Shown one piece after another: positions 2,422 to 19,339 of a DNA stretch of 39,000 nucleotides. The stretch covers positions 1 to 39,000 of the forward strand of contig DZBD01000005.1 of assembly GCA_022729795.1 (NCBI GenBank), written 5' to 3'. Within the stretch, counting starts at the first letter, position 1, and each line of letters opens with the position of its first letter. Source of the DNA: Sulfuricurvum sp. GTDB taxonomy: Bacteria > Campylobacterota > Campylobacteria > Campylobacterales > Sulfurimonadaceae. Under the pieces are notes generated by a model. That model saw only the letters and a list, made by a program, of their open reading frames with translations. It ran no database searches and was not told where the DNA came from. Made by a program: the position numbers and the translations under genes.

Positions 2422-4122
2422 ATGGACACTACAGCCGTTGATAAAAATATAACATCTGAATTAAATCGGATTAAACAATCTTCTCAAGAGCTTTATTATG
2501 AAAAATTAAAGCTAATCGAAAAGGGGATGAAATCCGACAATCCGAAAGATATAATAGAAGCTAACAGAGCGTATTCAGAAATAGCTCCCAAAGTAGAAGA
2601 CAATAATAAATCGTTCCTGATTGACCCATTAGAATTTACAACTAATTTAGGTTACAAGGATAAAATTTATTCATTGTCTTACGGTACTTTAAAGAGGATG
2701 TCTAAAACTCCTATTATCAGCACTATCATAAAAACAAGGAAAAATCAAGTAGCGGATTTTGCTGAGCCTCAAAGTAACAAATATTCGAACGGCTTCGTAA
2801 TACGCAAAAAAGGGGCTGAAGAAAACCAATTGTCAAAAGAGGATAAGCGTTCTATTTCTCAAATAACCGACTTCTTGTTAAATTGCGGTGTAAACGGAGC
2901 TTGGGATACAGATGACTTCGATGAATTTATAAGGAAGATGATTGACGATTCTTTGACTTACGACCAAATGACATTCGAAGTTGTTAGGAATAGAAGAGGA
3001 AGAATTGAGAAGTTTATAGCGACCGACGCTGCTACTCATAGAATAGCCGATACAGCTTTCAGAGATAATTACCAAAACGATTTCATTAAGAGAGGAGCTT
3101 CTAATAGAAGTCAATTCTTCAACACTCATATGAATATTCCGGATTATAAGGGATATTCTCCTACACACGTACAGATTTACCAAAACGCTGTTGTAAACGA
3201 ATACTATCCTTGGGAACTTTGTTTTGGAGTTCGGAATCCTTCAACGTCTATTTATTCAAACGGATACGGCTTGTCGGAATTAGAAGAATTAATCAACGTT
3301 GTAACTTCAATGCTTTGGGGCGATGAATACAACCGTAGATTCTTTTCTCAAGGTTCAGCTCCTAAAGGTTTATTGCGTGTTAAAGGGAATACGAATGAAA
3401 GAGCCCTACAACAGTTTAAACAACAATGGCAAGCAATGATTTCCGGAGTAATGCAAAGCTGGAAAACACCTGTAGTAGAAGCTGATATCGATTGGATTGA
3501 TTTACAGAAGAATAATCGTGACATGGAATATACAGCTTGGATGGAATATCTAATCAAGCTATCTTGCGGAATCTATTCTATCGACCCAACGGAAATAGGT
3601 TGGGATATTTCTAAGAGTGGCGGAGGAATGTTTGAAGGAAGTCAGGAACAAAGACTTACGCATTCTAAAGACAAGGGATTGTATCCTTTGTTGAAATTCT
3701 TACAAAGGAAAATAAACAAATATATCATATCTCCTTTAGCTCCGGAATTTGAATTCGTATTCGTTGGAATCAACGGTATAACAATGGAAAAGGAATTAGA
3801 GTTAGATGTGAAGAAAGCAGGTTCCTTTACCACTATAAATGAAACAAGAGAGAAATGGGGATTAGACGCTATAGAACATGGCGATATAATCGAAAACTCT
3901 GTTTATTGGCAAGCTGTAAGCGCAGAACAACAAAGACAAGCGCAAGAAGCCGTGAATCAGGAAGCTGCAGGAAAAGAACAGTTTAATCCGTTTGACGCAG
4001 TTTTAGAACAAGAAAATCCGTTTGACGCTTATGCTGAAACGGTAGATAATGAAACAGAAAAATCTGAATTAAAAGATATTTTTGTAAAAGCATTCGATAA
4101 CTTTTTAAAAGAAGAAGAATAA
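2422..4122 (+). CDS. Portal protein
   Basis: A 566-residue portal, the dodecameric ring at the capsid vertex through which DNA passes and to which the neck attaches. Recognisable core features are GYGLSELEELINVVTSM (about residues 286-302), the following RRFFSQGSAPKGLL strand, the helical segment with WQAMISGV, and the MEYLIKLSCGIYSIDPTEIG block, as in SPP1/T4-like portals. Length is normal. The extreme C-terminus is an acidic tail with two NPFDA repeats, TEKS and IFVKAFDNF, resembling tail motifs in the first gene, the small gene at 7639 and the AAA+ ATPase. That tail is unusual and could be a packaging or assembly signal. The next gene starts one base after its stop. A candidate late promoter lies just upstream. 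Confidence 0.93.
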   Translation: MDTTAVDKNITSELNRIKQSSQELYYEKLKLIEKGMKSDNPKDIIEANRAYSEIAPKVEDNNKSFLIDPLEFTTNLGYKDKIYSLSYGTLKRMSKTPIISTIIKTRKNQVADFAEPQSNKYSNGFVIRKKGAEENQLSKEDKRSISQITDFLLNCGVNGAWDTDDFDEFIRKMIDDSLTYDQMTFEVVRNRRGRIEKFIATDAATHRIADTAFRDNYQNDFIKRGASNRSQFFNTHMNIPDYKGYSPTHVQIYQNAVVNEYYPWELCFGVRNPSTSIYSNGYGLSELEELINVVTSMLWGDEYNRRFFSQGSAPKGLLRVKGNTNERALQQFKQQWQAMISGVMQSWKTPVVEADIDWIDLQKNNRDMEYTAWMEYLIKLSCGIYSIDPTEIGWDISKSGGGMFEGSQEQRLTHSKDKGLYPLLKFLQRKINKYIISPLAPEFEFVFVGINGITMEKELELDVKKAGSFTTINETREKWGLDAIEHGDIIENSVYWQAVSAEQQRQAQEAVNQEAAGKEQFNPFDAVLEQENPFDAYAETVDNETEKSELKDIFVKAFDNFLKEEE

Positions 4123-7638: not shown

Positions 7639-7836
7639 ATGTCTAAAAAAGATTCACATTTCATAAAATCTCCATTTAAAGCTGTTACGGAATACGAGAA
7701 CGAATTTGTAAAAGCCTTTAATGAGAATATAGCAGGAGCTGTAACAGAAGTGCTTAAAAACATAGCAACAGTTACAGCTTCGGCTGTAAAGAACGGATTA
7801 TCACTACAAAATAGTAACAATGATATTCAACAATAG
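7639..7836 (+). CDS. Small hypothetical protein (65 aa) with FVKAF motif
   Basis: A 65-residue protein between two head genes. SPFKAVTEY and EFVKAFNEN resemble the portal tail motif IFVKAFDNF and the ENPF-K-V motifs of the ATPase and first gene. The rest is an alternating hydrophobic/Ala helix (AGAVTEVLKNIATVTASAVKNG), perhaps amphipathic. It overlaps the MuF-type gene by 17 bases and fills what would otherwise be a 206-base gap, which supports a real gene. Function unknown; a small head-internal or assembly protein is plausible. Confidence 0.5.
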   Translation: MSKKDSHFIKSPFKAVTEYENEFVKAFNENIAGAVTEVLKNIATVTASAVKNGLSLQNSNNDIQQ

Positions 7837-8752
7837 TCAAATACAGGATTTGCTAAATATAATGAAGCGTTGGCAATACGTATTCATAGCAGACCAAATT
7901 GGTTTAAATTATTTAAGTCCTTCAGAAATAGCTGTATTAAAAGCTGCCGGAATAGACTTAGATAAATTCAAGAACAAAAAAGGGGTTGTAGAACACGCAT
8001 TCCTTTGGGGACTTTTAGCGGAAGCTATCGGAAGCGACCGAGCGAAGAAAATGAATTATCAACAATTCCAAAAGTTTGTATCCTCCGGAAATTTCGCTCC
8101 TTTAACAGAAGCAGAAGAGTTTGCTCTTAACCAAGTAAAAAACCGTGCCTACACGGATATCTCCGGATTAGGTAACAGAATAGCTACAGGTCTGTCAAAC
8201 AAGATAATCCAAGCAAATTTAAAGCAGCAAATCGCAGCAAGAAAGTTAATCAAAGAGAAAACAATCAAAGCGGTTGAACTTAGATACGGTGCTCGTCAAT
8301 TAGCAGCGGAGCTTGCCGAATCAACAAAAGATTGGGAAAGAGATTGGTTAAGAATATCATATTACTTATTACACGAATCTTACAATACAGGTAGAGCTGA
8401 AAGTATATTCAAGAATAACGGAGAAGACGCTGAAGTTTATTTCGACGTTCTCGACAGAGCTTGTATGAGTTGTTTGACATTATACTTAGAAGACCCTGAA
8501 GATTTAGGTAGTATGCCGAAAGTATTCAAATTAAAGGATATTTTAGCAAACGGTAATAACATCGGAAGAAAGAAAGACGATTTACTTCCTACAGTAGCTC
8601 CTGTTCATCCTTACTGCCGTTGTACTATAAATTACAAACGTCCTAACTTCGGATGGGATAGTGATTTAAGAGCGTTTGTAATTCCTCAAAAGATTCAATC
8701 TAATAACTCAAAGTTAAAAGGAGTAAAGTTAAACATAAAAATAGAAAAATAA
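7820..8752 (+). CDS. MuF-type minor head morphogenesis protein
   Basis: 310 residues. The C-terminal half carries the Mu gpF/SPP1 gp7-like signature: a helical region with ESYNTGRAE (about 186-194), then the Cys pair in DRACMSCL (C215, C218) and the HPYCRC motif (H263 to C268) that probably binds metal. MuF proteins attach to the portal inside the head and are often ejected with the DNA; family members are frequently fused to, or encoded beside, toxin-like enzymes. Here the domain is unfused, and the ADP-ribosyltransferase-like domain lies five genes downstream. The start overlaps the preceding small gene. The family call is firm. Confidence 0.85.
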   Translation: MIFNNSQIQDLLNIMKRWQYVFIADQIGLNYLSPSEIAVLKAAGIDLDKFKNKKGVVEHAFLWGLLAEAIGSDRAKKMNYQQFQKFVSSGNFAPLTEAEEFALNQVKNRAYTDISGLGNRIATGLSNKIIQANLKQQIAARKLIKEKTIKAVELRYGARQLAAELAESTKDWERDWLRISYYLLHESYNTGRAESIFKNNGEDAEVYFDVLDRACMSCLTLYLEDPEDLGSMPKVFKLKDILANGNNIGRKKDDLLPTVAPVHPYCRCTINYKRPNFGWDSDLRAFVIPQKIQSNNSKLKGVKLNIKIEK

Positions 8753-8759
8753 AATTGTA

Positions 8760-9407
8760 ATGAAAAAAGTATTAATTGTATCTCCTCATAGCGATGACGC
8801 TATGTTTAATTGTGGTAAATATATTCTTACAGGAAAATACGATGTTGAAATATTGACGGTTGAAAACGACCCTAAAAGAATTCAAGAAGACAAAAACTTA
8901 TACGGCTTCCTGAATATTCCCTTACATCATTTAGAAGTAGATTTCATTGACAATAGTTATTACGGATATTTCAAAACTTTCAAAGGAGTTAATCATAATG
9001 ACGCTCATGCTTATTTGAAGGAATACTTCGGACAAGAAGTTCTGGATGACGTTAAATCTTCTATTTTGAAGTTTGTAAGAAAGTTCCGGAAAAGAAACGA
9101 GGGTTGTATCGTTTTAGCTCCTCTTGGAATTGCTCACCCTTTTCATTACTTTGTACACGAAGTTCTTTTAGAAGAAGCCGACTTGTTTTACAGAGAGTTC
9201 CCTCACTCGTACAAGAAACGTTCTCAACAACAGTTCAATGCTTGCTTATCTCACTTCGGTCGTAAATATCAATTCGATGATTTAAACGTACATGAAGCGA
9301 AGTTTGATTTGTCAAAGAAATTCTACAAATCTCAATCAGGACTTCTGTTCTTTGAATCAGGTTACATTAAAAAACAGCTTCCGGAAGAATTTTACGTAAA
9401 ACTATAA
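8760..9407 (+). CDS. PIG-L/LmbE-family N-acetylglucosaminyl deacetylase
   Basis: 215 residues, normal for the family. The N-terminal SPHSDD (8-13) matches the PHxDD zinc/catalytic motif, with H10 and D13 as probable ligands. AHPFH (125-129) corresponds to the second HPDH zinc motif, with Phe in place of Asp. PIG-L enzymes remove acetyl groups from N-acetylglucosamine on glycolipids, small thiols, antibiotics or other glycans. A glycosyltransferase gene lies just downstream with a homing endonuclease gene between, so the two may act in sequence: GlcNAc transfer, then deacetylation. The acceptor is unknown; virion protein, host surface glycan or modified DNA base are all possible. Confidence 0.85.
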   Translation: MKKVLIVSPHSDDAMFNCGKYILTGKYDVEILTVENDPKRIQEDKNLYGFLNIPLHHLEVDFIDNSYYGYFKTFKGVNHNDAHAYLKEYFGQEVLDDVKSSILKFVRKFRKRNEGCIVLAPLGIAHPFHYFVHEVLLEEADLFYREFPHSYKKRSQQQFNACLSHFGRKYQFDDLNVHEAKFDLSKKFYKSQSGLLFFESGYIKKQLPEEFYVKL

Positions 9408-9411
9408 TCGT

Positions 9412-10116
9412 ATGAATGGGATAATTTACAAAACAACTAATTTAATCAACGGCAAAATTTACATAGGTCAACATTCTACAAATGACAAAAATTATTTAGG
9501 TTCCGGAGTAAGACTATTCTCCGCCATAAAGAAATATGGCAAACAAAACTTCATTCGAGAAACTTTGAAAGAATGTAAAACTCAAAAAGAGTTAGACGCT
9601 TTTGAGCAAGTTTACATAAAACGTTATAATTCTATAAATGAAGAATTCGGTTACAATATACTCACAGGGACAGCGAATAAGTTCGGTTCAGGTAGTCCAG
9701 CGTTATTACCTGATATTAAAGTTAAGATGAGCATTGCAATGCAAGAAAGATTGAAATCAGGTTGGAAACCTAAGCATTATCTAACAGAAGAACATTATAA
9801 GGCTCATTCTGAATTCATGAAAGAATATTTCAAAACACACGACCAACATAATAAAGGTAAGAAGATTGAAAAAGAAAAACATGCTATGTACGGTAAAAAA
9901 CATTCTTTGGAAACTAAAAATAAGATGAGCCTAAATCACGCTGATTTTTCTGGTAAAAATAATCCTATGTACGGTATTAAGATATGCGGGGATAAAAATC
10001 CAGCGTTTGGAAAGAAATGGATTACGAATGGAAAAGAAAATAAATATATAGATAAAGATGACGATATACCGTTTGGTTTTAGAAAAGGTGTAACAAGAGG
10101 AATTATAAAAATATGA
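9412..10116 (+). CDS. GIY-YIG homing endonuclease with NUMOD3-like repeats
   Basis: 234 residues. Residues 1-95 form a GIY-YIG nuclease domain: GIIYKTT and KIYIGQHS, then YLGSG, AIKKYGKQNF and the Glu-containing helix ELDAFEQVYIKRYN. The C-terminal half has NUMOD3-type DNA-binding elements (HAMYGKKHSLETKNKMS near 156, NNPMYGIK, NPAFGKKW). It resembles T4 Seg-type free-standing homing endonucleases that spread by cutting genomes lacking them. It sits between the deacetylase and the glycosyltransferase, ends in ATGA overlapping the next start, and looks like a mobile insertion that preserved translational coupling. No intron or intein boundary is visible. Confidence 0.9.
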   Translation: MNGIIYKTTNLINGKIYIGQHSTNDKNYLGSGVRLFSAIKKYGKQNFIRETLKECKTQKELDAFEQVYIKRYNSINEEFGYNILTGTANKFGSGSPALLPDIKVKMSIAMQERLKSGWKPKHYLTEEHYKAHSEFMKEYFKTHDQHNKGKKIEKEKHAMYGKKHSLETKNKMSLNHADFSGKNNPMYGIKICGDKNPAFGKKWITNGKENKYIDKDDDIPFGFRKGVTRGIIKI

Positions 10117-11570
10117 AAATAATTATAGCAACATTCGAAATAGCAAAATACGGAGGAATCGTAGAACACATAGAAGCTAAGGTAAAAGCATTCAAATCAT
10201 TAGGTCATGAAGTTGACATAGTAGAACTAAAACCATCTTCCACAACACAAAAGAAATACGACGAAGCTATAAGAAAGTTTAAGTCCGGAGAATTTCAATC
10301 TACAAAAACTTTGAACTCTCAAAACGGAGGATATGAACTTTCTGAAGCAACAGGCTATTACAAGAACAACTATTACGGTTATTTTTTACCACCTTCAAAT
10401 CGTATAGGAGTATTTGAAGAAGACGCTTTGTTACGTTGGTATGAGTTAGTTGAGGATGTAGATTTGATAATGTGGAATTTCATGCCTACAAAAAGTTCTG
10501 CTTGGAATAAGGCTGATTTTAGCTTTTGGTGGAAATTTTATGATTTACCTTCAAACATAAAACAAGTCTTTACAGCACATGATGCTTACTTCGATATCAG
10601 AGCTTCGAACGTTACAGCACTAAAGAAGAAAATACTATTCTTAGAGTGCGCACACGTTGCCGCTTATCATTGCTGCGAAAATATAGGTATTCCTCGAGCA
10701 TTACTTTTGAATCCTCGTTATTTACAGGACGATTTAGAAATGGAAATTATTCCTATGTCAGAAAGGGAAACAGACTTCTTTGCTGCTCATATCTTTAAGA
10801 GTATGAAGCATATGGAAGAACTTATACGTTGCGTACCTTATTTGAATCCAGATTCAATAGAAGACGACTCGACTTGTAGCTTCCCTTATTCGGTTGTCAT
10901 TGCAGGTTCCGGAATAGAACAAGCCTATATGGTAGCAAAGGAAAAAATCAAACCTTGTTATATTTGTAATAAGAAGACTGACCCTGATATTCCGGAATAC
11001 AGAATAGGTATTTCTAATTGGGAAATTGCTGAAAACCACGGAATGAATTACTTAGGTCAAATAAGTAGCAAAACTGTTAATAAATTTTTAAAGAACAGTA
11101 AATTCGCTGTAGACCCGAGTTGGGCTGCTCATTACGCTCAATATTGCAGAACTCATATCAACGGCTTCATAATAGAAGCTATGTTACACGGCTGTTATCC
11201 TGTACTTAGAGATTACAGCAGTTTAAGCAAAAATACAACCGATTCAGACCCACTGTTCGAAAGTATAAGAGCGATTTATATTCCTTGGGATGCAACTCCT
11301 AAACAGTTTGCTAAAGCATTACGAAAGGCTTGTAATAAGATTTCAGAAGAACAATATTTAGAAGATACGCTTCACAACTTCGAAATTGTCAAAACTCTTT
11401 TCAACGCAAAAGAAAATGTTGAGGAGATAGTTAGATTAGCTGAAGGCGGAAAGAAATTAGTTCGTAAGGAATTAGAGATAGGTCAAGATTCAGAAAATGT
11501 AAAAAGAATCTCCGAAGAAATAATGACAGGGTTCTTCAAAATCGAACTACCAATAATTTGGGAAACTTAA
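10113..11570 (+). CDS. GT-B fold glycosyltransferase (GT4-like)
   Basis: 485 residues. The N-terminal Rossmann-like half begins MKIIIATFEIAKYGGIVEHI with a Gly-rich loop and SLGHEVDIVEL, typical of GT4-type enzymes. The C-terminal half has a VVIAGSG strand, NYLGQIS, and GFIIEAMLHGCYPVLRD (351-367), corresponding to the donor-binding E-x7-E region although the second Glu is not preserved. A CYIC pair (C282, C285) may bind metal or form a disulfide. There are no membrane segments, so it acts in the cytoplasm on a soluble acceptor. With the PIG-L gene it suggests a phage-encoded sugar modification. Donor and acceptor are unknown. It overlaps the homing endonuclease gene by four bases. Confidence 0.75.
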   Translation: MKIIIATFEIAKYGGIVEHIEAKVKAFKSLGHEVDIVELKPSSTTQKKYDEAIRKFKSGEFQSTKTLNSQNGGYELSEATGYYKNNYYGYFLPPSNRIGVFEEDALLRWYELVEDVDLIMWNFMPTKSSAWNKADFSFWWKFYDLPSNIKQVFTAHDAYFDIRASNVTALKKKILFLECAHVAAYHCCENIGIPRALLLNPRYLQDDLEMEIIPMSERETDFFAAHIFKSMKHMEELIRCVPYLNPDSIEDDSTCSFPYSVVIAGSGIEQAYMVAKEKIKPCYICNKKTDPDIPEYRIGISNWEIAENHGMNYLGQISSKTVNKFLKNSKFAVDPSWAAHYAQYCRTHINGFIIEAMLHGCYPVLRDYSSLSKNTTDSDPLFESIRAIYIPWDATPKQFAKALRKACNKISEEQYLEDTLHNFEIVKTLFNAKENVEEIVRLAEGGKKLVRKELEIGQDSENVKRISEEIMTGFFKIELPIIWET

Positions 11571-11573
11571 AAT

Positions 11574-11585
11574 TACAGTTATAAT
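11574..11585 (+). promoter_or_regulatory. Candidate late promoter (TACAGTTATAAT) before the ATPase gene
   Basis: The exact motif lies in the 36-base gap between the glycosyltransferase stop and the ATPase start, ending 21 bases before the ATG. It is followed by an A/T-rich leader containing TTTCATAAAAAAA; the portal copy is followed by a similar CCATAAAAAG. It probably starts a transcript for the ATPase and kinase/ART genes. Confidence 0.55.
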
Positions 11586-11606
11586 TTCATAAAAAAAATT
11601 GAAATT

Positions 11607-13136
11607 ATGGCAGCAGTAAAACAAGTAGGCGATGTTCACCCTAAAAATCCTAATTTAGTTTGGACTGAATATCAACCAGGAAAATTCGATTATAGAAACA
11701 AAAATTCGATAAAACCAGTAGGCGTAAAACCTATGGATGTTAAGCAATTATCAGTTTGGGCTCCATCCGCTAAAACAGACAGTCTGATAATAATAGCTCA
11801 ATCCCCTAAAGCAGATGCTCAAAAAAGAAAAGTCGCTTACGATGAGTTGGAAAAAAGAGGACACGATATGTCTACTATCGACACTTCCGGAACGCTCGAT
11901 AAATTCCTTAATAATCAAAATAAGGTTAATAATCTTTTAGGACGCAATAATCCTACTCCTACTCCATCTCCAGTGGTTGCCGGAGATGAAGCTCCTGTAG
12001 ACGAAGATGGAATCACCGAAGAATGGTGGTTGAATAAAACCGACGCTCGTGTAAAGAAAAATTTCAATCTTTCAACAAAGTCTGGTCGTATCAAATATGA
12101 CCACTTTCTCGACAAGATGAAAAAGAAACAGAAGAACTATAAGAATCCTGTTCGTGTTATGCAGGATTTAGCTCGTCAATACGCTTACTTCTTGAAGAAT
12201 GAAAAAGCAAGGTTTATGATTTCTGCAGGGGGTGCTGGTATTGGTAAAACTTATTTATTCAAGACTCTTTCAGAATATTTGAATATCAAACCTTTTGACT
12301 CAACAAAAGACGCTCCTGGCGATGGCGATTACGGTTACTTCGAAGCTCCCAATGTTTCTTCAGCAAAACAACTTGCCGGCATATTAAAAAGTCATAACGG
12401 TAAATTATTACTGTTCGATGACAATGACGCTGTTTTAACAGATAAGCGTTGCGCCGCAATGATGAAGAAAGCTACTGCTACAGGCGGCAAAAGAATCGTA
12501 GATGACCCTGAAGATAAAACAATCAACTTCGAATTTACAGGACGTATCATGATAATGACTAACAAAGATTTAGCTACATTATCGGAGAACGAAGATACCA
12601 AAGCTGTTATATCGAGAGCCACAGGCGGTAAATCTGAAATTTACTTAACTGTTTCTGAAACTATTGACGTTCTTAGAGACCGTTTCCAAAAAATGGAATT
12701 TGATACCGTTGACAGATTAGACGATACAAACGAAGATGTTCAAGAAAGAGCTGAAGTATTCCATGTAATAGAAAAGAATTCGAAGAACATTGACCCAGCT
12801 CAATTTACGGTTCGTAATTTTGAATCTATGATTTTAGTTCGTAGAGCCGCAGAAAATGGAAACGCTATGGCAGATGACGCTGCTATCAACGACCTTATCG
12901 GTACTCATAAACAAGATTGGGAAGAAGAAGCGGGATATTTAATTACAAAGGCTCAAAACGATGAACTGTTTGTAGAATCAGCGGAAGATTTTTCTAAAGC
13001 AGAAGAAACGGAAGAAAATCCTTTTGTTAAAATAGTTGAAGGACAAGAAGTAGAAAAAGCGGTTGAAGAAGAATTTTCAGTAAACTTCGACAACATGGAT
13101 ATTGAGAAAGCAGAAACGTTGTTATTTGGAGAATAA
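11607..13136 (+). CDS. AAA+ ATPase with head-protein-like flanking modules
   Basis: 509 residues. The AAA+ core has Walker A GGAGIGKT (208-215), Walker B LLLFDD (267-272), a sensor-1-like MIMTN (315-319) and a possible arginine finger in ISRATG (335-340). Before it come a small beta module (VWTEYQPGKFDYR, 18-30), a helical module ending ELEKRG (80-85) that is shared with the tagged protein at 7191, and a Pro/Thr linker. After it comes an acidic tail with ENPFVKIVEG (470-479), VEKAVEEE (482-489) and IEKAETL (499-505), matching motifs in the first gene, portal and scaffold. This layout is unusual for a replication or packaging ATPase and suggests a virion-associated or co-packaged motor. Its substrate is unknown. 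The stop overlaps the next start by one base (TAATG). Confidence 0.85.
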   Translation: MAAVKQVGDVHPKNPNLVWTEYQPGKFDYRNKNSIKPVGVKPMDVKQLSVWAPSAKTDSLIIIAQSPKADAQKRKVAYDELEKRGHDMSTIDTSGTLDKFLNNQNKVNNLLGRNNPTPTPSPVVAGDEAPVDEDGITEEWWLNKTDARVKKNFNLSTKSGRIKYDHFLDKMKKKQKNYKNPVRVMQDLARQYAYFLKNEKARFMISAGGAGIGKTYLFKTLSEYLNIKPFDSTKDAPGDGDYGYFEAPNVSSAKQLAGILKSHNGKLLLFDDNDAVLTDKRCAAMMKKATATGGKRIVDDPEDKTINFEFTGRIMIMTNKDLATLSENEDTKAVISRATGGKSEIYLTVSETIDVLRDRFQKMEFDTVDRLDDTNEDVQERAEVFHVIEKNSKNIDPAQFTVRNFESMILVRRAAENGNAMADDAAINDLIGTHKQDWEEEAGYLITKAQNDELFVESAEDFSKAEETEENPFVKIVEGQEVEKAVEEEFSVNFDNMDIEKAETLLFGE

Positions 13137-15514
13137 TGGAACTATTAGAAGCTCTTTACAGAATAGCGGAACTAAATGGGTCGGGAGATGTTCCCGACTA
13201 TGTTTTAGTTAAGGCATGTAATAATTACAAAATAAATTGTTCTTACTTCATTGAATCGGAAGATTATGATATAAAGATTTCAAAATCTATATCTGATTAT
13301 TTGAATAACAACGAACCAGAAGATGAAGTTTGTAAGGCTGTGCTTCCAGGAACTACTAAAGTTGTAGACGGAGTTGTTTATATTTATACCGCAACTCCTG
13401 GCGCAAAAACTCAATATGACTGGAGGGTTTATAGCAATCCTAACTCAGCTTTAAATACCGCAAAACAAACTTCTAAAAAAGCTGTAATTTCTCAAAGGTA
13501 TGTAAACGATTTATTTCCTTTAGAGCTCGCTTCTTTTGTTAATATCAAAAAATTAGGAGGAAGTACAGGAGCTGAACTCGTTAAGGATTCAGGAGGAGCT
13601 CAATATGTAATGAAGAAAGGTTCTAACACCTCTTCTGCACACGTAGAGTCGGAATATATAGCTAATCAACTTTATGAGATTTTAGGAGTAAGGACGCCAG
13701 ATTACGAGCTGTACGACGATAAGGGTGAAAAAGTTCTTGTAAGTAAATTCATTCATAACGCAACAGTTGTTAGTGCTTCAGATTACAATGAGCTTTCAAA
13801 GAATTTTATCATAGATGCATTTTTAGCTAATCGCGATGTTTACCAAAACGATAATTGTTTGAAAGACGCTTCTGGAAGAATATACAGGGTTGACAATGGA
13901 AGTTGTTTAAGTTTCAGAGCAGGCGGTTCTACTAAAAAATTCGACGAAGATGTAGCTAATGATTTAAAGGGCATGATTCAATACAACGGTCATGTCATAG
14001 CTAATTTGTCAGACCAAGATATCATAGACCAAATAACCGACTTACAAACTAAAAAAGATTTTACCGTAGATTTCCTTGCGGCTTCAGGACAACAGTCACT
14101 TTCCGACATTATATCTAAAAGGTTTGACAAACTTGAAGATATCAAAAAGGAATACGAGAAAAAGATTCAAAAGAAAGTAGCTAAAAGTGCTTTGAAAAAC
14201 GCTCCGAGAAATTTACTTCCGGACGCTGATATGTACAAGGAATTCGACGACGTTGAATTAGATTCCATCTTTAAAAGCGTTTCAGGTTCTTGGTATGACA
14301 AGGTAATGAACAAAACTTACAGAGGTTGGGAATTAGTTGAGAATATTTGTAAGTTAAGAGGTTTTGACGCAAGACCCGAAGTTGTTAATGAAAATACTTA
14401 TTGGCAAGAAGTTAAGAAGAATCCGGAAAATCAATTATTCAGAGGTTTAACAAAAGGAAACAAACCTTCAGAAGAATATGCCGACGATTTCAAATACGAC
14501 GATGAATGTTTTTACGGCTCTGTAGGTATTTACGGTTCTGGAATTTATTTCCACGCTAATGACAATTCAAGCGGAAAACAACATGATAAAACAGATTACA
14601 AAAATTCCAGAGCTTATGGTCATGCACTTCAGTATGCTAATTATCAAGGAACAGTAATAGATGCTCTTTTGAGTCCTAAAGCTAAAATAGCAAAATATAA
14701 GGATTTAATAAAACAACTCGAAGCGGAAGTTGTATTCGATGATTCTCAAGCAAAAGCTATACAATCTAAAATAAATTTATTGAAGATTGATTTAAAGGAA
14801 TTCGAGGATGAGTTTCATAACGTTACTTACAATACAGAAAATAATGTAAGGAACGCAATGCATTGGGACCAAAACTCCTATATTATGCACGCTATAGAAA
14901 TAGACGCTGTAAATTGGGGAGCTATCGATGAACACGGGAATCCCACTTATCCTGATTTCAATTCTTTCTTTCATGGTAAGATAAAAGGTTGGGTAGAAGC
15001 GAACGGAGGAACTGTAACCGAAAAAGCTCCTAATAGCAATGCGTTCATTTTGAAGTTACCAAATAGCAAACAAACGTTTCTACTTTCAGAATATACTTAT
15101 ATGAATAATGCAATCAAACAAAAGAATGCATTTACAAAAGCGTATAATTATCCTGTAGAAAGATTCAGAGATTGGTTTGTAACTAATCATTTTGCTATAA
15201 TCAATAAAAAAGTAGAAGAAGAAGTTTCTAATTTGGGTGACAAAATAACGGATTTAAAATCTGAAATAATGAGAGTTAAGAGCGAACTTTCAGACCAAGG
15301 AGACGAGCTTAACAAAGTAAAGAACAAAAATGTTAATCCGGATAAGGATATAATTTCTTGTTGCGTACACGCTGTTAAAACAGGTAGAGAAGAAGCATTA
15401 GGAATTTACGCTGCCGTAAAGGGATATGACGCAATAAAAGTTCCTAATGGTAACGGAATAGGAAATTCATTTATAGTTGTATTGAACAGAAGTAAGGTGA
15501 TTGTAAAAGAATAG
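13136..15514 (+). CDS. Fusion of a kinase-like and an ADP-ribosyltransferase-like domain (putative polyvalent protein)
   Basis: 792 residues. A short linker module (VCKAVLPGTTK, then TPGAKTQYDWRV, 65-98) precedes a kinase-like region at about 135-265: Gly-rich GGSTGAELV (141-149), a Lys in YVMKK (157-161), Glu171 in HVESEY, LANRDVYQNDN (230-240) resembling a catalytic loop, and VDNG (252-255) resembling DFG. It recalls the HipA/actin-fragmin-kinase fold more than classical Ser/Thr kinases. From about 430 an ADP-ribosyltransferase-like fold appears: LFRG (R436), YGSGIYF (466-472), GTVIDALLSPKAKI (505-518) and a terminal GYDAI with VVLNRS (781-786). A long helical/coiled-coil insertion (about 520-730) splits the ART parts, and I cannot assign the catalytic Glu. 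T4 Alt is a known virion-carried ART. Inference: an injected host-modifying protein. Both domain calls rest on motifs seen by eye. Confidence 0.6.
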   Translation: MELLEALYRIAELNGSGDVPDYVLVKACNNYKINCSYFIESEDYDIKISKSISDYLNNNEPEDEVCKAVLPGTTKVVDGVVYIYTATPGAKTQYDWRVYSNPNSALNTAKQTSKKAVISQRYVNDLFPLELASFVNIKKLGGSTGAELVKDSGGAQYVMKKGSNTSSAHVESEYIANQLYEILGVRTPDYELYDDKGEKVLVSKFIHNATVVSASDYNELSKNFIIDAFLANRDVYQNDNCLKDASGRIYRVDNGSCLSFRAGGSTKKFDEDVANDLKGMIQYNGHVIANLSDQDIIDQITDLQTKKDFTVDFLAASGQQSLSDIISKRFDKLEDIKKEYEKKIQKKVAKSALKNAPRNLLPDADMYKEFDDVELDSIFKSVSGSWYDKVMNKTYRGWELVENICKLRGFDARPEVVNENTYWQEVKKNPENQLFRGLTKGNKPSEEYADDFKYDDECFYGSVGIYGSGIYFHANDNSSGKQHDKTDYKNSRAYGHALQYANYQGTVIDALLSPKAKIAKYKDLIKQLEAEVVFDDSQAKAIQSKINLLKIDLKEFEDEFHNVTYNTENNVRNAMHWDQNSYIMHAIEIDAVNWGAIDEHGNPTYPDFNSFFHGKIKGWVEANGGTVTEKAPNSNAFILKLPNSKQTFLLSEYTYMNNAIKQKNAFTKAYNYPVERFRDWFVTNHFAIINKKVEEEVSNLGDKITDLKSEIMRVKSELSDQGDELNKVKNKNVNPDKDIISCCVHAVKTGREEALGIYAAVKGYDAIKVPNGNGIGNSFIVVLNRSKVIVKE

Positions 15515-15516
15515 TT

Positions 15517-15873
15517 ATGAGAGAAAGATTATTATCAGTAATAGGAGCACGGGCAAAGAATTATTTAGACCGAAAAGTTCCGAGTAGTATTATTCCATTC
15601 ACAGGTTCATTCCCATTGCTTAACAGCGTAGAATTTGAAGATTACGTAGAGTTATTGAAAACTAAAATGTATCTTACAGATTTATCTGATAAATTACAGA
15701 AAATTACTTTGTTAGGTAACAAGATGGCTCTAATGGAAGAAAGTTTCAAAGAATATTTGAAAAGAGAAAACTTAGAATTCAAAACAATGAGTTCAAAAGA
15801 AAAAACTTCTCATTTGTTAGTTTGGTTAGAAGAAGATAATTTATCAACAAACGATTTAAAAATAAAATTATGA
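15517..15873 (+). CDS. Hypothetical helical protein (118 aa)
   Basis: A 118-residue, mainly helical charged protein with no membrane segment and no motif I recognise. It starts two bases after the kinase/ART-like gene and overlaps the DUF5675 gene by four bases (ATGA), so it is translated with them. It might be a partner of either neighbour; nothing in the sequence decides. Confidence 0.6.
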   Translation: MRERLLSVIGARAKNYLDRKVPSSIIPFTGSFPLLNSVEFEDYVELLKTKMYLTDLSDKLQKITLLGNKMALMEESFKEYLKRENLEFKTMSSKEKTSHLLVWLEEDNLSTNDLKIKL

Positions 15874-16319
15874 AACTGTTAATTAAGACTTTTTACAAAG
15901 GAGAAAAATATACGTTAAGCAAATTATCTATTGACGGTGTGAAGATGTGCGATATCATCGAAGATAAGGTGAGAGCTCTTCCGGCAAAATGTCTTTATAC
16001 TCCAAAAGGATTAGATTGCAAATGTAAGGAAAAAGTTTACGGAGAAACGGCTATTCCTGCCGGAACTTACAAATGTGAGTTTACGATGAGTAGTAGGTTT
16101 AAAAGAAAACTTCTTGCTATTTTAAATGTTCCTCATTTCATTGGAATAAGAATGCACAGGGGAAATACCGAAATAGATTCGCACGGCTGCACTATCGTTG
16201 GGGAAAATAAGGTAAAAGGAAAAGTCATTAATTCTACTTATTGGGAAGAAAAATTAAATGATATATTCGAGGAAGCTTCAAATAACGGAGAGGAAATTGA
16301 AATAACAATCGAGAGATAA
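15870..16319 (+). CDS. DUF5675 family protein (possible peptidoglycan-active enzyme)
   Basis: 149 residues matching the DUF5675 layout over its whole length: YTLSKLSIDGVKMCDIIED, then GETAIPAGTYKCEFTMS, a VPHFIGIRMHRGNTEIDSHGC block and a GENKVKGKVINST turn. H96, H105 and C107 in MHRGN and SHGC resemble the His/SHGC arrangement of L,D-transpeptidase (YkuD) active sites. The family has no settled function; a role in peptidoglycan cleavage or modification at entry or lysis is plausible. Since the amidase-like gene at 5546 appears catalytically dead, this is a candidate for the active lytic enzyme. It has no signal peptide. Confidence 0.85.
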   Translation: MKLLIKTFYKGEKYTLSKLSIDGVKMCDIIEDKVRALPAKCLYTPKGLDCKCKEKVYGETAIPAGTYKCEFTMSSRFKRKLLAILNVPHFIGIRMHRGNTEIDSHGCTIVGENKVKGKVINSTYWEEKLNDIFEEASNNGEEIEITIER

Positions 16320-16369: not shown

Positions 16370-17824
16370 ATGAAAGTAAACGATAATATAAAATTTTGGC
16401 TTCCTGTAGAAATTCAAAAAGGTTTCAACGAACAGGGAACGGAAATAATGAAGTTAGGAGGAATTGCGTCTACTATAGACAAAGACTTCGACGGAGAATC
16501 GTTAGACCCAAGCGGATTTGATGTAACACCTCTTCTTCAAAGCGGGATTGTTAATTGGCATCATCAAGTTAAAGGTCAGCCAAAAACAATAATCGGAGAA
16601 CCAACAAAAGCTGAAATCAAACCTGAAGGACTTTACATTGAAACAGAATTATATCCTTCGAGTCAGATTGCTAAAGACGTTTGGGAACTTGCTCAAACTT
16701 TGCAAAAAGATAGCAAAACTCGTAGATTAGGATATTCTATCGAGGGAAAAGTTTTGAAAAGAAAATCTGACGACCCTAAAAGTCCTGATTTCAAGAAGAT
16801 ATTAAAAGCGAGTATAACAGGCGTTGCTATAACTCACCAACCTAAAAATCCAAAAACTTTTGCTAATATAATCAAAGGAGAAGTCGATAACGACGACATC
16901 GACGATGAGGTTGAAGAAACAGAAGAAATTGAAAAAGAAATGAATACCGAAAACGGAGCTGCTTTGAAAAAAGAGTCTGTTAATAAGGATATGAAAACTT
17001 CTTTAACAAAATCTCAAGTTTTGGAAATTTTATTCTTCGATAATCCGGATTTAAGTATAGAAAAAGGAGAGCAAATTTACAAATTAATAACAAAAATATC
17101 GGTCATGAAAAACAAAAAAAGTATTTCAACTGAAGATATTGAAAAAGCCTATGAACTTTTAGGTGTTGACAATATTGAAAAGGCGAAGGAATCCTCTGAC
17201 GAAACTCCGGAAGTTGTTGAAGAAGACAAAGATGGAGATGAAGGAAAGAAAGAATCTAAAAAAGAGCAAAAGGAAGCTGAAGAATCAAGCGACGATAATT
17301 CAGTTGAAAAAGCTGAAACTCCGGAAATAGGAAGCAACTTCTCTGAAAGATTCGACGGTATTGAAAAAGCTATTATGACATCTAATAAAAACACTAACGA
17401 GTTTATCAAAGCTGTTGGAGTTTTAGTTAAGGATACCAGAAACGCTATTCAGAAGTCGGAAGAAAGAGAAGAACAACTTCTTGATATCATTAAGGCTCAA
17501 GGTGAAAGTCTTGATATTCTTAAAGGTCAAATCGAAGAGATTGGTAATTTCACTCCTGCTCCAAAGTCTATTAAGAGTGCGCAAGTAATGGAAAGAAACT
17601 TTTCTAAAGGCGAAGAAAATGAACTGAAGGAAGATAGCAACGCTACTCTTAGTATTTCGAAAAACAAACGTGCTATTGTTGAAATTTTAGACCAAGCTTG
17701 TTTCGCTAAAGGTTACGATGCACAGTTCGGAAAGGCTTGTACTCAATTCGAATCTTCGAATGTAATCATGCCCGATGTAATCAATCGTTTGAAAAACGAG
17801 TTTAACATAAATATAGTAAAATAA
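16370..17824 (+). CDS. Prohead protease fused to scaffold-like C-terminal region
   Basis: 484 residues. Residues 1-170 are an HK97/XkdF/T4 gp21-type prohead serine protease: GGIASTIDKDFDGE (30-43), NWHH (62-65) with the catalytic His, GYSIEG (121-126) with Ser123 as probable nucleophile, and ASITGVAIT (147-155). The remaining 300 residues are acidic and helical, as expected of a scaffolding core that the protease would digest during maturation. This part holds four copies of (I/V)EKA, at 257-260, 269-272, 312-315 and 331-334, plus a related FIKAV. The gene directly precedes the capsid gene, the usual order. Self-processing at the repeated motif is possible but only inferred. The family assignment is firm. 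Confidence 0.85.
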   Translation: MKVNDNIKFWLPVEIQKGFNEQGTEIMKLGGIASTIDKDFDGESLDPSGFDVTPLLQSGIVNWHHQVKGQPKTIIGEPTKAEIKPEGLYIETELYPSSQIAKDVWELAQTLQKDSKTRRLGYSIEGKVLKRKSDDPKSPDFKKILKASITGVAITHQPKNPKTFANIIKGEVDNDDIDDEVEETEEIEKEMNTENGAALKKESVNKDMKTSLTKSQVLEILFFDNPDLSIEKGEQIYKLITKISVMKNKKSISTEDIEKAYELLGVDNIEKAKESSDETPEVVEEDKDGDEGKKESKKEQKEAEESSDDNSVEKAETPEIGSNFSERFDGIEKAIMTSNKNTNEFIKAVGVLVKDTRNAIQKSEEREEQLLDIIKAQGESLDILKGQIEEIGNFTPAPKSIKSAQVMERNFSKGEENELKEDSNATLSISKNKRAIVEILDQACFAKGYDAQFGKACTQFESSNVIMPDVINRLKNEFNINIVK

Positions 17825-17845: not shown

Positions 17846-19339
17846 ATGAGCAAATTATCTATTAATCTGTCTGACTATGCTGGTGGTGCCGCTCAAGGTG
17901 CTGAGTATGGTGTGATGGGGATGGAAAATGTGGACCAACTTAACAAAGCTCTTTCGGCAGGTGACATCACTGGTCGTGAGACAACTGATATGTTGGACGC
18001 TTCTGGTGCCCCTTTGAAAGTTGAGTCTTTGGAGAAAACTCTGAAACACTTGACATTCCGTGAAACTGACATTAAACTGTGGAAAGACGTGCCTAAAAAA
18101 GCAGCTTTCAATACAGTTGAAGAGTACCAACAACAAGTATCTTACGGACAAGACCGTGGTGGCTTCAACAACGAGGGTGAACTTCCGGAAGAAGAAGACA
18201 GCGTATATGTACGTAGAGCTCAGTTGGTGAAATATCTTGGCGTTACCAAATCGGTTACTCACCAGATGACTCTCGTTAACAGTGCTATTGGCCCAGTAAT
18301 GGACAAAACTATTAAAGACGGTACTATGTGGATTCTTCGTAAGTTGAACAAATCTCTTTACTTCGGTAATGAAAATATTGTTCCTCAGGAATTCAACGGT
18401 TATATTGCACAGCAAATGCAGTCTGACGCTTGGGCGAGCTATGCCGCTTACATGGACTCTGAAAATATTGTTGACTTACGTGGTTATGCCTTGTCTGAAA
18501 CTGCTATCGAATCTGCCGCAAACAGTATCGTTGAAAACTTCGGTTTAGGTACTCAAATCTATGGCCCACCTGCAGTTCTTTCGAACTTCGTTAAGAATTT
18601 CTATGGTAATAAATTTATCCAACCCAACACAGCTGCAACTTCGAATGGAGTTATGGGTCAACGTGTTCAAGCGTTCGATTCTCAGTTCGGTCAGATTGGT
18701 TTGAACCACGACGTGTTCTTCAAAAAATTACCAAGTAAAACTCCAGCTTCTGCTGCAACTTCCGCTAAAGCTCCAACGAAACCAGCTTGGGATGCAACAA
18801 CTCCTATCGCTATCGTTACAGGTGTTGCCGGAACCAAATGGACCACTGCCGATGCAGGAAATTACTATTATGCAGTATCTGCTTTGAACCGTTTTGGTGA
18901 ATCAGACCTCGCTGTATATAGTGCTGCCGCTGCCGCTGCCGTTTCTGGTTGTGCCGTTGCTTTGAAATTTGCTGATGGTGGGGGTGCAAACGCTGCTACA
19001 GGTTATCGTATTTATCGTACCAAAGTAGGCGGTGCTGCAACAGGCGAGTTCTATCCTTTGTACGAAGTATCTACAGATGACTTGACCCGTGGTTACGATG
19101 GCGCTGGCGCTGGAATTATCCGTGACTTGAACCGTTTCTTGCCGGATTGCGACCAATGTATGTTGCTTCAGTTTGACGAAGAAGTAATTGAGTTCGCTCA
19201 ACTTGCTCCTCTTATGAAAATGGACTTAGCTGTTCTTTCTCCAGCGTTCCGCTTTATGGTGTTGCTTTACGGTACTCCATTCTTGTACGCTCCGAAAAAA
19301 CTTGTTCGCTTCATCAACGTAGGAACAACGTTAGCATAA
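17846..19339 (+). CDS. Major capsid protein with Ig/FN3-like insertion
   Basis: 497 residues, HK97-fold shell protein. Position after the protease, the mostly T/C-ending codons with raised GC, and the terminator just downstream all fit a very highly expressed gene. Residues 1-290 hold the N-arm and main folds (QVSYGQDRGGFNNEGELP near 92). Residues about 305-420 form an Ig/fibronectin-type III-like domain (GNYYYAVSALNRFGES, ATGYRIYRTKVGG), probably exposed on the capsid surface. The rest (LPDCDQCMLLQFDEEVIEF to the end) returns to the capsid core. Such surface Ig-like domains are known on other phage heads and are thought to bind carbohydrates or stabilise. Long antisense reading frames here come from the codon bias. 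Confidence 0.9.
   Translation: MSKLSINLSDYAGGAAQGAEYGVMGMENVDQLNKALSAGDITGRETTDMLDASGAPLKVESLEKTLKHLTFRETDIKLWKDVPKKAAFNTVEEYQQQVSYGQDRGGFNNEGELPEEEDSVYVRRAQLVKYLGVTKSVTHQMTLVNSAIGPVMDKTIKDGTMWILRKLNKSLYFGNENIVPQEFNGYIAQQMQSDAWASYAAYMDSENIVDLRGYALSETAIESAANSIVENFGLGTQIYGPPAVLSNFVKNFYGNKFIQPNTAATSNGVMGQRVQAFDSQFGQIGLNHDVFFKKLPSKTPASAATSAKAPTKPAWDATTPIAIVTGVAGTKWTTADAGNYYYAVSALNRFGESDLAVYSAAAAAAVSGCAVALKFADGGGANAATGYRIYRTKVGGAATGEFYPLYEVSTDDLTRGYDGAGAGIIRDLNRFLPDCDQCMLLQFDEEVIEFAQLAPLMKMDLAVLSPAFRFMVLLYGTPFLYAPKKLVRFINVGTTLA

Follow-up and report, generated by a model that had tools for sequence, protein, structure and literature searches.

The stretch of DNA analysed here, referred to as the window, is the entire 39,000-base contig DZBD01000005.1 of a Sulfuricurvum sp. 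genome bin of 2.25 Mb (GCA_022729795.1), and it carries a phage structural module in which genes for a portal, a MuF-like protein, a head protease and the major capsid protein (MCP) are followed by tail genes. Within this module lies P0001, a genuine open reading frame (ORF) at 13136..15514, whose product joins a kinase domain to a domain resembling ADP-ribosyltransferases (ARTs). Its parts are as follows, with residue numbers counted along the protein.

13136..15514, + strand: P0001, kinase and ART-like protein, 792 residues (ORF list; 12 full-length homologues aligned; AlphaFold2 model with a predicted local distance difference test score, pLDDT, of 82)
13505..14176, + strand: HipA/CtkA/AFK-type kinase domain, residues 124-347, with K160, E173, D234, N240 and D253 (VIA structure alignment and invariant residues)
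14327..14695, + strand: first half of the ART-like domain, residues 398-520, with strand-1 R436 and strand-2 Y471 (hhalign with compact ARTs; alignment)
14696..15349, + strand: insert within the ART-like domain, residues 521-738, of long helices and a small alpha/beta part (AlphaFold2 secondary structure)
15350..15511, + strand: second half of the ART-like domain, residues 739-792, with GYDAI and NSFIVVLNR, and N777 at the Glu site of active ARTs (alignment)

An earlier note, made from the sequence alone, had read both sets of motifs in this protein, and all of them are present: for the kinase, a GGSTG G-loop (141-145), K160, E173, LANRDV (D234), N240 and VDNG (D253); for the ART, LFRG (R436), YGSGIYF (Y471) and GYDAI/VVLNR (D765, N784, R785). 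Every named position is invariant in the 12 homologues save G141 and G145 of the loop, so that G142-S143, K160, E173, D234, N240 and D253, like R436 and Y471, are unchanged in 12/12 members and D765, N784 and R785 across the family. IMG/VR holds one 99% identical copy of P0001 and 13 more loci with full-length homologues at 36-52% identity; compared at the same sensitivity with 84,980 genomes of bacteria and archaea, the whole protein found no relatives. A survey of 298 genomes of the phylum gave a match in one, the window's own, and therefore does not indicate a widespread prophage. Searched against Pfam, PHROGs and PDB sequences, P0001 gave nothing above cutoff; coiled-coil and HNF_C matches were dropped as weak, and a tape-measure PHROG match (E 9e-4) was dropped because it covers helical stretches only. 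The AlphaFold2 model, built from the 12-sequence alignment, has a mean pLDDT of 82 and a predicted template modelling score (pTM) of 0.45, which makes the relative orientation of its domains unreliable.

Residues 124-347 of the model, aligned with VIA-align, match Helicobacter CtkA best (Z 13.4 over 204 residues), with further matches to 7wcf (11.5), PI4KII-alpha (11.4), actin-fragmin kinase (AFK; 10.8) and Legionella HipT (10.4). This structural match excludes a chance assignment and bears out the kinase fold that had been proposed. The domain shares with CtkA and HipA/HipT the order G-loop Ser, Lys, Glu, catalytic Asp, metal Asn and Asp; unlike them, it is fused to an ART and stays below the Pfam HipA_C cutoff (14 bits against a gathering score of 30.5), and no HipB-type antitoxin gene was found. 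Equivalent catalytic residues are kept in 46/46 non-redundant kinase clusters, G-loop letters being missing in one; the N, W and D of the NWD motif were part of the kinase search pattern and hence do not count as independent evidence. With a kinase fold and invariant catalytic residues, the kinase is predicted to be active, and P0001 very probably carries a catalytically competent enzyme. Public family models largely miss the domain: Pfam gave HipA_C in 7 of 16 kinase relatives (best E 6.8e-4), HipA_2 in 4 and Act-Frag_cataly in 2, with no cutoff reached in any protein scanned. P0001 itself fell under all Pfam cutoffs and gave no match to PARP, ART-PolyVal or ADPrib_exo_Tox.

For the ART-like domain, hhalign pairs residues 398-520 with compact ARTs found in further phage proteins (probability 96%, E 1.5e-9), a profile match that likewise excludes chance for the first half. 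The second half is assigned by alignment, the last 55 residues following motif for motif the GYDAIE...VVLNRG C-terminal strands of the compact ARTs. Between the halves sits the insert of about 215 residues, which the compact relatives lack; the long helical insertion foreseen in the earlier note is there at about 521-738 and is mostly helical, and it also contains a small alpha/beta part (about 605-660). A compact ART from relative L056 (11024-11686; model pLDDT 79, pTM 0.73) served as a structural stand-in. When this model was re-aligned with VIA, ART-fold entries filled 48 of the 50 rows listed, including ParT, MbcT, Tpt1, PARP13/14, tankyrases, domain III of exotoxin A and an ART-fold anti-CRISPR (Z 4.6-6.0); it is the uniformity of this list, each Z being modest, that leads us to accept the fold, as the earlier note had proposed. 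The other two rows are one unrelated entry and the top match, a cyanophage pre-ejectosome protein. In BFVD, the six matches to the model with E <1e-3 are all uncharacterised or unnamed phage proteins, and weaker matches are to proteins named ART-PolyVal or PARP. Pfam PARP on the L056 segment gave E 8.6e-5 (22.6 bits, under the curated cutoff of 26.7), and ART-PolyVal E 0.12. P0001 shares with PARP, RES and Tpt1 ARTs the YGxGIY and last-strand patterns, the structural neighbours of the compact model being PARP13/14, ParT, MbcT and Tpt1; it departs from the PARP branch in having R for the PARP His, N for Glu and the insert.

As a separate observation, the top match of the L056 ART is chain 9k3a_B of cyanophage A4 (residues 1267-1602, Z 6.5), a model-based likeness which raises the possibility that a protein ejected by that phage contains an ART-like domain.

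The earlier note held that two such enzymes in one candidate cargo protein would be unusual, an expectation that did not survive comparison with other phages. A tblastn search with the Phendrix kinase as query found the domain in phages of Gordonia, Morganella, Yersinia, Enterobacter, Pseudomonas, Aeromonas and Actinomycetia and in three plasmid records; nine cultured or plasmid elements carry kinase and ART on one polypeptide, one of them annotated as virion-associated. An ADPrib_exo_Tox ART above the Pfam cutoff accompanies the kinase in Mecenats66, fHe-Yen8-01, Dolphis, Touem01, phiT5282EW and a Pseudomonas juntendi phage-like plasmid. The ART of ST4 is weaker (E 0.013), yet annotated as an ADP-ribosyltransferase, Phendrix has an ART of the P0001 class (hidden Markov model built here, E 8e-4), and that of DSL-LC01 was recognised by eye; in phage Forza the two lie on separate proteins, the kinase on gp78 and an ART on gp80. 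ADP-ribosyltransferase proteins such as those of the phages Dolphis (Pseudomonas), fHe-Yen8-01 (Yersinia) and ST4 (Aeromonas) resemble P0001 in uniting the same kinase with an ART, and differ from it in their ADPrib_exo_Tox-type ART (R-S-E) and their length (1177-2222 residues), the kinase being unannotated.

A kinase scan of IMG/VR gave 474 loci, and ARTs were counted, with profiles made here, in 40 complete non-redundant kinase ORFs from the best 80 of them, the controls being other ORFs of the same loci. An ART is present in 27/40 kinase ORFs against 5/60 control ORFs of at least 600 residues (p 5e-10), and against 4/21 of at least 1000 residues when size is matched (p 4e-4); under a strict threshold the count is 22/40 (p 4e-7 and 0.013, respectively). 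A weak call in L042 was removed on reading its sequence, which is why the figure is 27/40 rather than 28/40. Four of the five ART-bearing control ORFs come from a locus where the kinase ORF itself showed no ART. Pfam independently made 20 matches among 24 of the ART segments, 16 to ADPrib_exo_Tox and 4 to PF01129 (possibly overlapping). The ARTs belong to two classes and lie N- or C-terminal to one kinase family, and on a quick kinase tree with many weak forks we count at least 11 changes of ART class and at least 15 of ART side, numbers that are indicative only, since the states include 'none'. Such variety in ART class and position around a single kinase family points to repeated pairing.

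It is possible, if somewhat unlikely, that the pairing is a mere by-product of giant polyvalent proteins collecting many domains. Many kinase ORFs exceed 2000 residues and house other enzymes, and the size-matched comparison is the weaker one, especially under the strict threshold; the same pair also occurs, though, in small proteins with few other recognised enzymes (792, 874, 883, 929 and 953 residues), and ARTs of two classes, some placed before the kinase and some after it, do not fit passive collection well.

Polyvalent proteins, in which unlike catalytic domains such as ARTs or kinases share one phage polypeptide that is coded with portal-terminase head genes, have been proposed to be injected (PMC5512222), and P0001 resembles them in its two unlike catalytic domains and in being coded with portal, protease and MCP genes. 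It has, unlike them, no Pfam match to the hub domains MPTase, ArdC and DdrB-ParB, a linkage that is frequent rather than universal in the class; HExxH stretches were seen by eye in relatives L056, L071 and L097. The kinases of that work are described as being of Ser/Thr/Tyr type, lacking a C-terminal subdomain and keeping a His and an Asp, their signature being a His...Asp active site, a Glu before strand 2 and a conserved Gln (PMC5512222). The pattern here is N-[WR]-D without that His, and the Pfam matches include no polyvalent-kinase. In the sections of text available to us, PMC5512222 makes no mention of HipA or of a kinase-ART pairing, and neither the HipA/CtkA-type kinase family nor the pairing is described there or in PMC9503650, supplementary files excluded. 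Head-packaged phage ARTs are already known (PMC9503650), as is the polyvalent-protein idea; on our reading, what is new is the kinase-ART lineage.

The genes around P0001 bear on where its product may go, and in order along the window they are these.

2422-4122: portal (PHROGs/Pfam)
7820..8752, + strand: MuF-like head protein (C-terminal cysteine/histidine pattern by eye; conserved upstream of P0001; no Pfam match)
8760-9407: PIG-L-like deacetylase gene, retained within the head module of related phages
9412-10116: gene for a GIY-YIG-like homing-type nuclease, with repeats; an insertion into the head module that the related contigs compared did not show
10113-11570: glycosyltransferase-like gene, retained within the head module of related phages
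11607..13136, + strand: AAA-type ATPase-like protein (phrog_1250, E 3.8e-10; synteny), carrying head-type sites and a tag
13136..13339, + strand: N-terminal segment of P0001, residues 1-68, with sites 24-27, 48-51 and 65-68; candidate head-protease prosegment
13334..13429, + strand: tag-like stretch KAVLPGTTKVVDGVVYIYTATPGAKTQYDWRV of P0001, residues 67-98 (by-eye likeness to KAHQVGDIHPNGKWVWTEIKPGKFDWRV; weaker evidence)
15517..15873, + strand: 118-residue protein, directly 3' of P0001 in 9/9 relatives examined
15870-16319: DUF5675 protein, between the 118-residue gene and the protease (Pfam)
16370..17824, + strand: head maturation protease with a fused scaffold-like tail (phrog_1028, E 4e-34)
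17846..19339, + strand: MCP (phrog_752, E 3e-82; SU10_MCP)

In nine related contigs the order MuF-like, PIG-L-like, glycosyltransferase-like, AAA-like, P0001, 118-residue protein, protease, MCP is largely kept, some genes being absent because of contig ends or variation between contigs; the trio of AAA-like gene, P0001 and 118-residue gene is present in 9/9. The linkage to head genes noticed earlier is strengthened by this conserved synteny. The pattern [ILVF]xK[AS] occurs at 10 sites in the protease/scaffold ORF against 1.8 expected, is enriched also in the tails of other head-region proteins and has one conserved site at the MCP N-terminus. In P0001 the sites at 24-27, 48-51 and 65-68 are kept in 11/12, 11/12 and 12/12 homologues, in an N-terminal region that includes a low-confidence stretch of the model (residues 38-67), and cleavage there may be expected from the motif. 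The tag KAHQVGDIHPNGKWVWTEIKPGKFDWRV is common to other head-region genes, and the P0001 stretch KAVLPGTTKVVDGVVYIYTATPGAKTQYDWRV follows its K-A/S sites. Furthermore, the ART class of P0001 is fused to MuF (PF04233) in L112 and L113, and the kinase-ART relative in fHe-Yen8-01 is annotated 'phage particle associated protein'. Together with the precedent of T4 Alt as a capsid-targeted, injected enzyme (PMC5512222), the synteny, sites, tag-like stretch, MuF-ART fusions and annotated homologue make it likely that P0001 is packaged in the virion, and the candidate-cargo status given to it earlier has gained accordingly from the synteny, the head-type sites and that annotation.

A tag of about 25 residues, VGDIHPNGKWVWTEIKPGKFDWRV, was also observed in unlike head-region proteins (window 11607-13136; L005:4802-5392 and 11013-12086), shared at blastp E 7e-8 and 3e-6 and preceded by K-A sites; it is a candidate capsid-targeting signal. 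The 118-residue protein has no head-type sites and no helix-turn-helix family match in Pfam, and may be a chaperone or immunity partner that holds P0001 inactive or protects the producer.

We therefore read P0001 as a phage effector of the polyvalent-protein kind that unites two enzymes and is packaged in the head, with a probability of roughly 0.68. This builds on the computed kinase fold with its intact site, the ART-fold homology with R and Y kept, the synteny and the repeated pairing; what we infer is that the protein is packaged, trimmed and ejected, that both enzymes work and that they have host targets. P0001 would be made late, together with the capsid proteins, and directed to the prohead by its N-terminal segment, with the head protease probably trimming at the K-A/S sites; it would be kept in the capsid until it is ejected along with the DNA. 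Inside the host cell, the ATP-dependent HipA/CtkA-type kinase would phosphorylate at least one host protein, and the ART-fold domain would use nicotinamide adenine dinucleotide (NAD+), either modifying a host target or consuming NAD+ itself. T4 Alt and the T4 internal proteins are targeted to the capsid, trimmed by protease and injected. As with Alt, the ART of P0001 is coded with head genes; Alt, for its part, is an R-S-E enzyme without a kinase, whereas P0001 has R, Y and N for Glu and an internal insert. More broadly, the recurrence of the pairing in many unrelated phages suggests that kinase-ART proteins are a common but little-noticed class, carried in virions and used on the host at infection.

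Several points weigh against this reading. The [ILVF]xK[AS] motif was derived within this analysis, and in the whole of P0001 its enrichment is borderline (6 against 2.7 expected, p 0.05). Foldseek gave no significant PDB match for the L056 model, so that the ART assignment draws on the VIA re-alignment and the BFVD comparison instead, and the structural Z values are low one by one (4.6-6.5). Finally, the position of the catalytic Glu is N in 8 family members, H in 3 and P in 1.

Because the canonical Glu is absent, ADP-ribosyl transfer by P0001 should not be assumed, and the domain may instead carry out NAD phosphorolysis or have a non-catalytic role. We consider it unlikely that the kinase is the sole working enzyme, the ART-like domain having lost catalysis and serving as a binding or structural module: the altered Glu site and the large insert would fit, whereas R436, Y471, D765, N784 and R785 are invariant, the same-class relatives L090, L101, L111 and L113 retain the Glu, and RES-type ARTs with active residues R-Y-N work as NAD+ phosphorylases (PMC9503650). 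The last point raises an equally doubtful alternative, in which the domain works in RES-like fashion, as an NAD+ phosphorylase or NADase, so that NAD+ is depleted or ADP-ribose-1''-phosphate is formed and no macromolecule is modified. The R-Y-N residues agree with RES ARTs (PMC9503650), and two RES-type toxins, ParT and MbcT, rank high in the structural comparison; ParT, though, is an enzyme with a protein as its target, PARP is the Pfam family that the class resembles, and Z values fail to separate RES from PARP. Least probable is that the protein serves head assembly while still inside the producing cell, perhaps by phosphorylating capsid or scaffold, and is not injected, since its place in the head module beside a constant AAA-like ATPase and small protein is offset by related phages that hold the pair away from the immediate capsid genes and by highly variable ART/kinase architectures of the sort typical for host-directed effectors.

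On the two-enzyme effector reading, the set defines testable candidate virion effectors built on a phage HipA-like kinase family that public family models miss and that is statistically tied to ARTs. The kinase occurs in phages already in culture, which infect Pseudomonas, Yersinia, Enterobacter, Aeromonas, Morganella and Gordonia, and this makes the content of the virion, the kinase activity, the use of NAD+ and the host targets testable now in standard laboratory strains. A more speculative extension, to which we give little credence, is that the two enzymes are functionally coupled, one making or controlling the substrate of the other: a kinase-installed phosphate might then be ADP-ribosylated, or the kinase might phosphorylate the ADP-ribosyl mark or the ART itself. 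That the pair recurs with ARTs of two classes, placed before or after the kinase, agrees with such coupling, which, if true, would be a two-step host modification so far undescribed.

In many proteobacteria a cellular relative of the kinase is fused to or adjoins a dual-specificity-type phosphatase (HCRGGLGRAG; L027:8344-9621, L115-L194). The phosphatase-kinase gene lies beside draT/draG, the nitrogenase ADP-ribosylation switch, in 14/80 loci, a neighbourhood that fits coupling weakly; with only these loci, mostly from a few alphaproteobacterial groups, a general link of the cellular protein to ADP-ribosylation genes was not shown. The same kinase also forms the C-terminus of a 3211-residue Streptomyces protein of toxin-like layout (L025:25-9660), and in the P. 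juntendi phage-like plasmid one protein carries NUDIX, kinase and ART and adjoins a minor head protein (L026:7576-11976).

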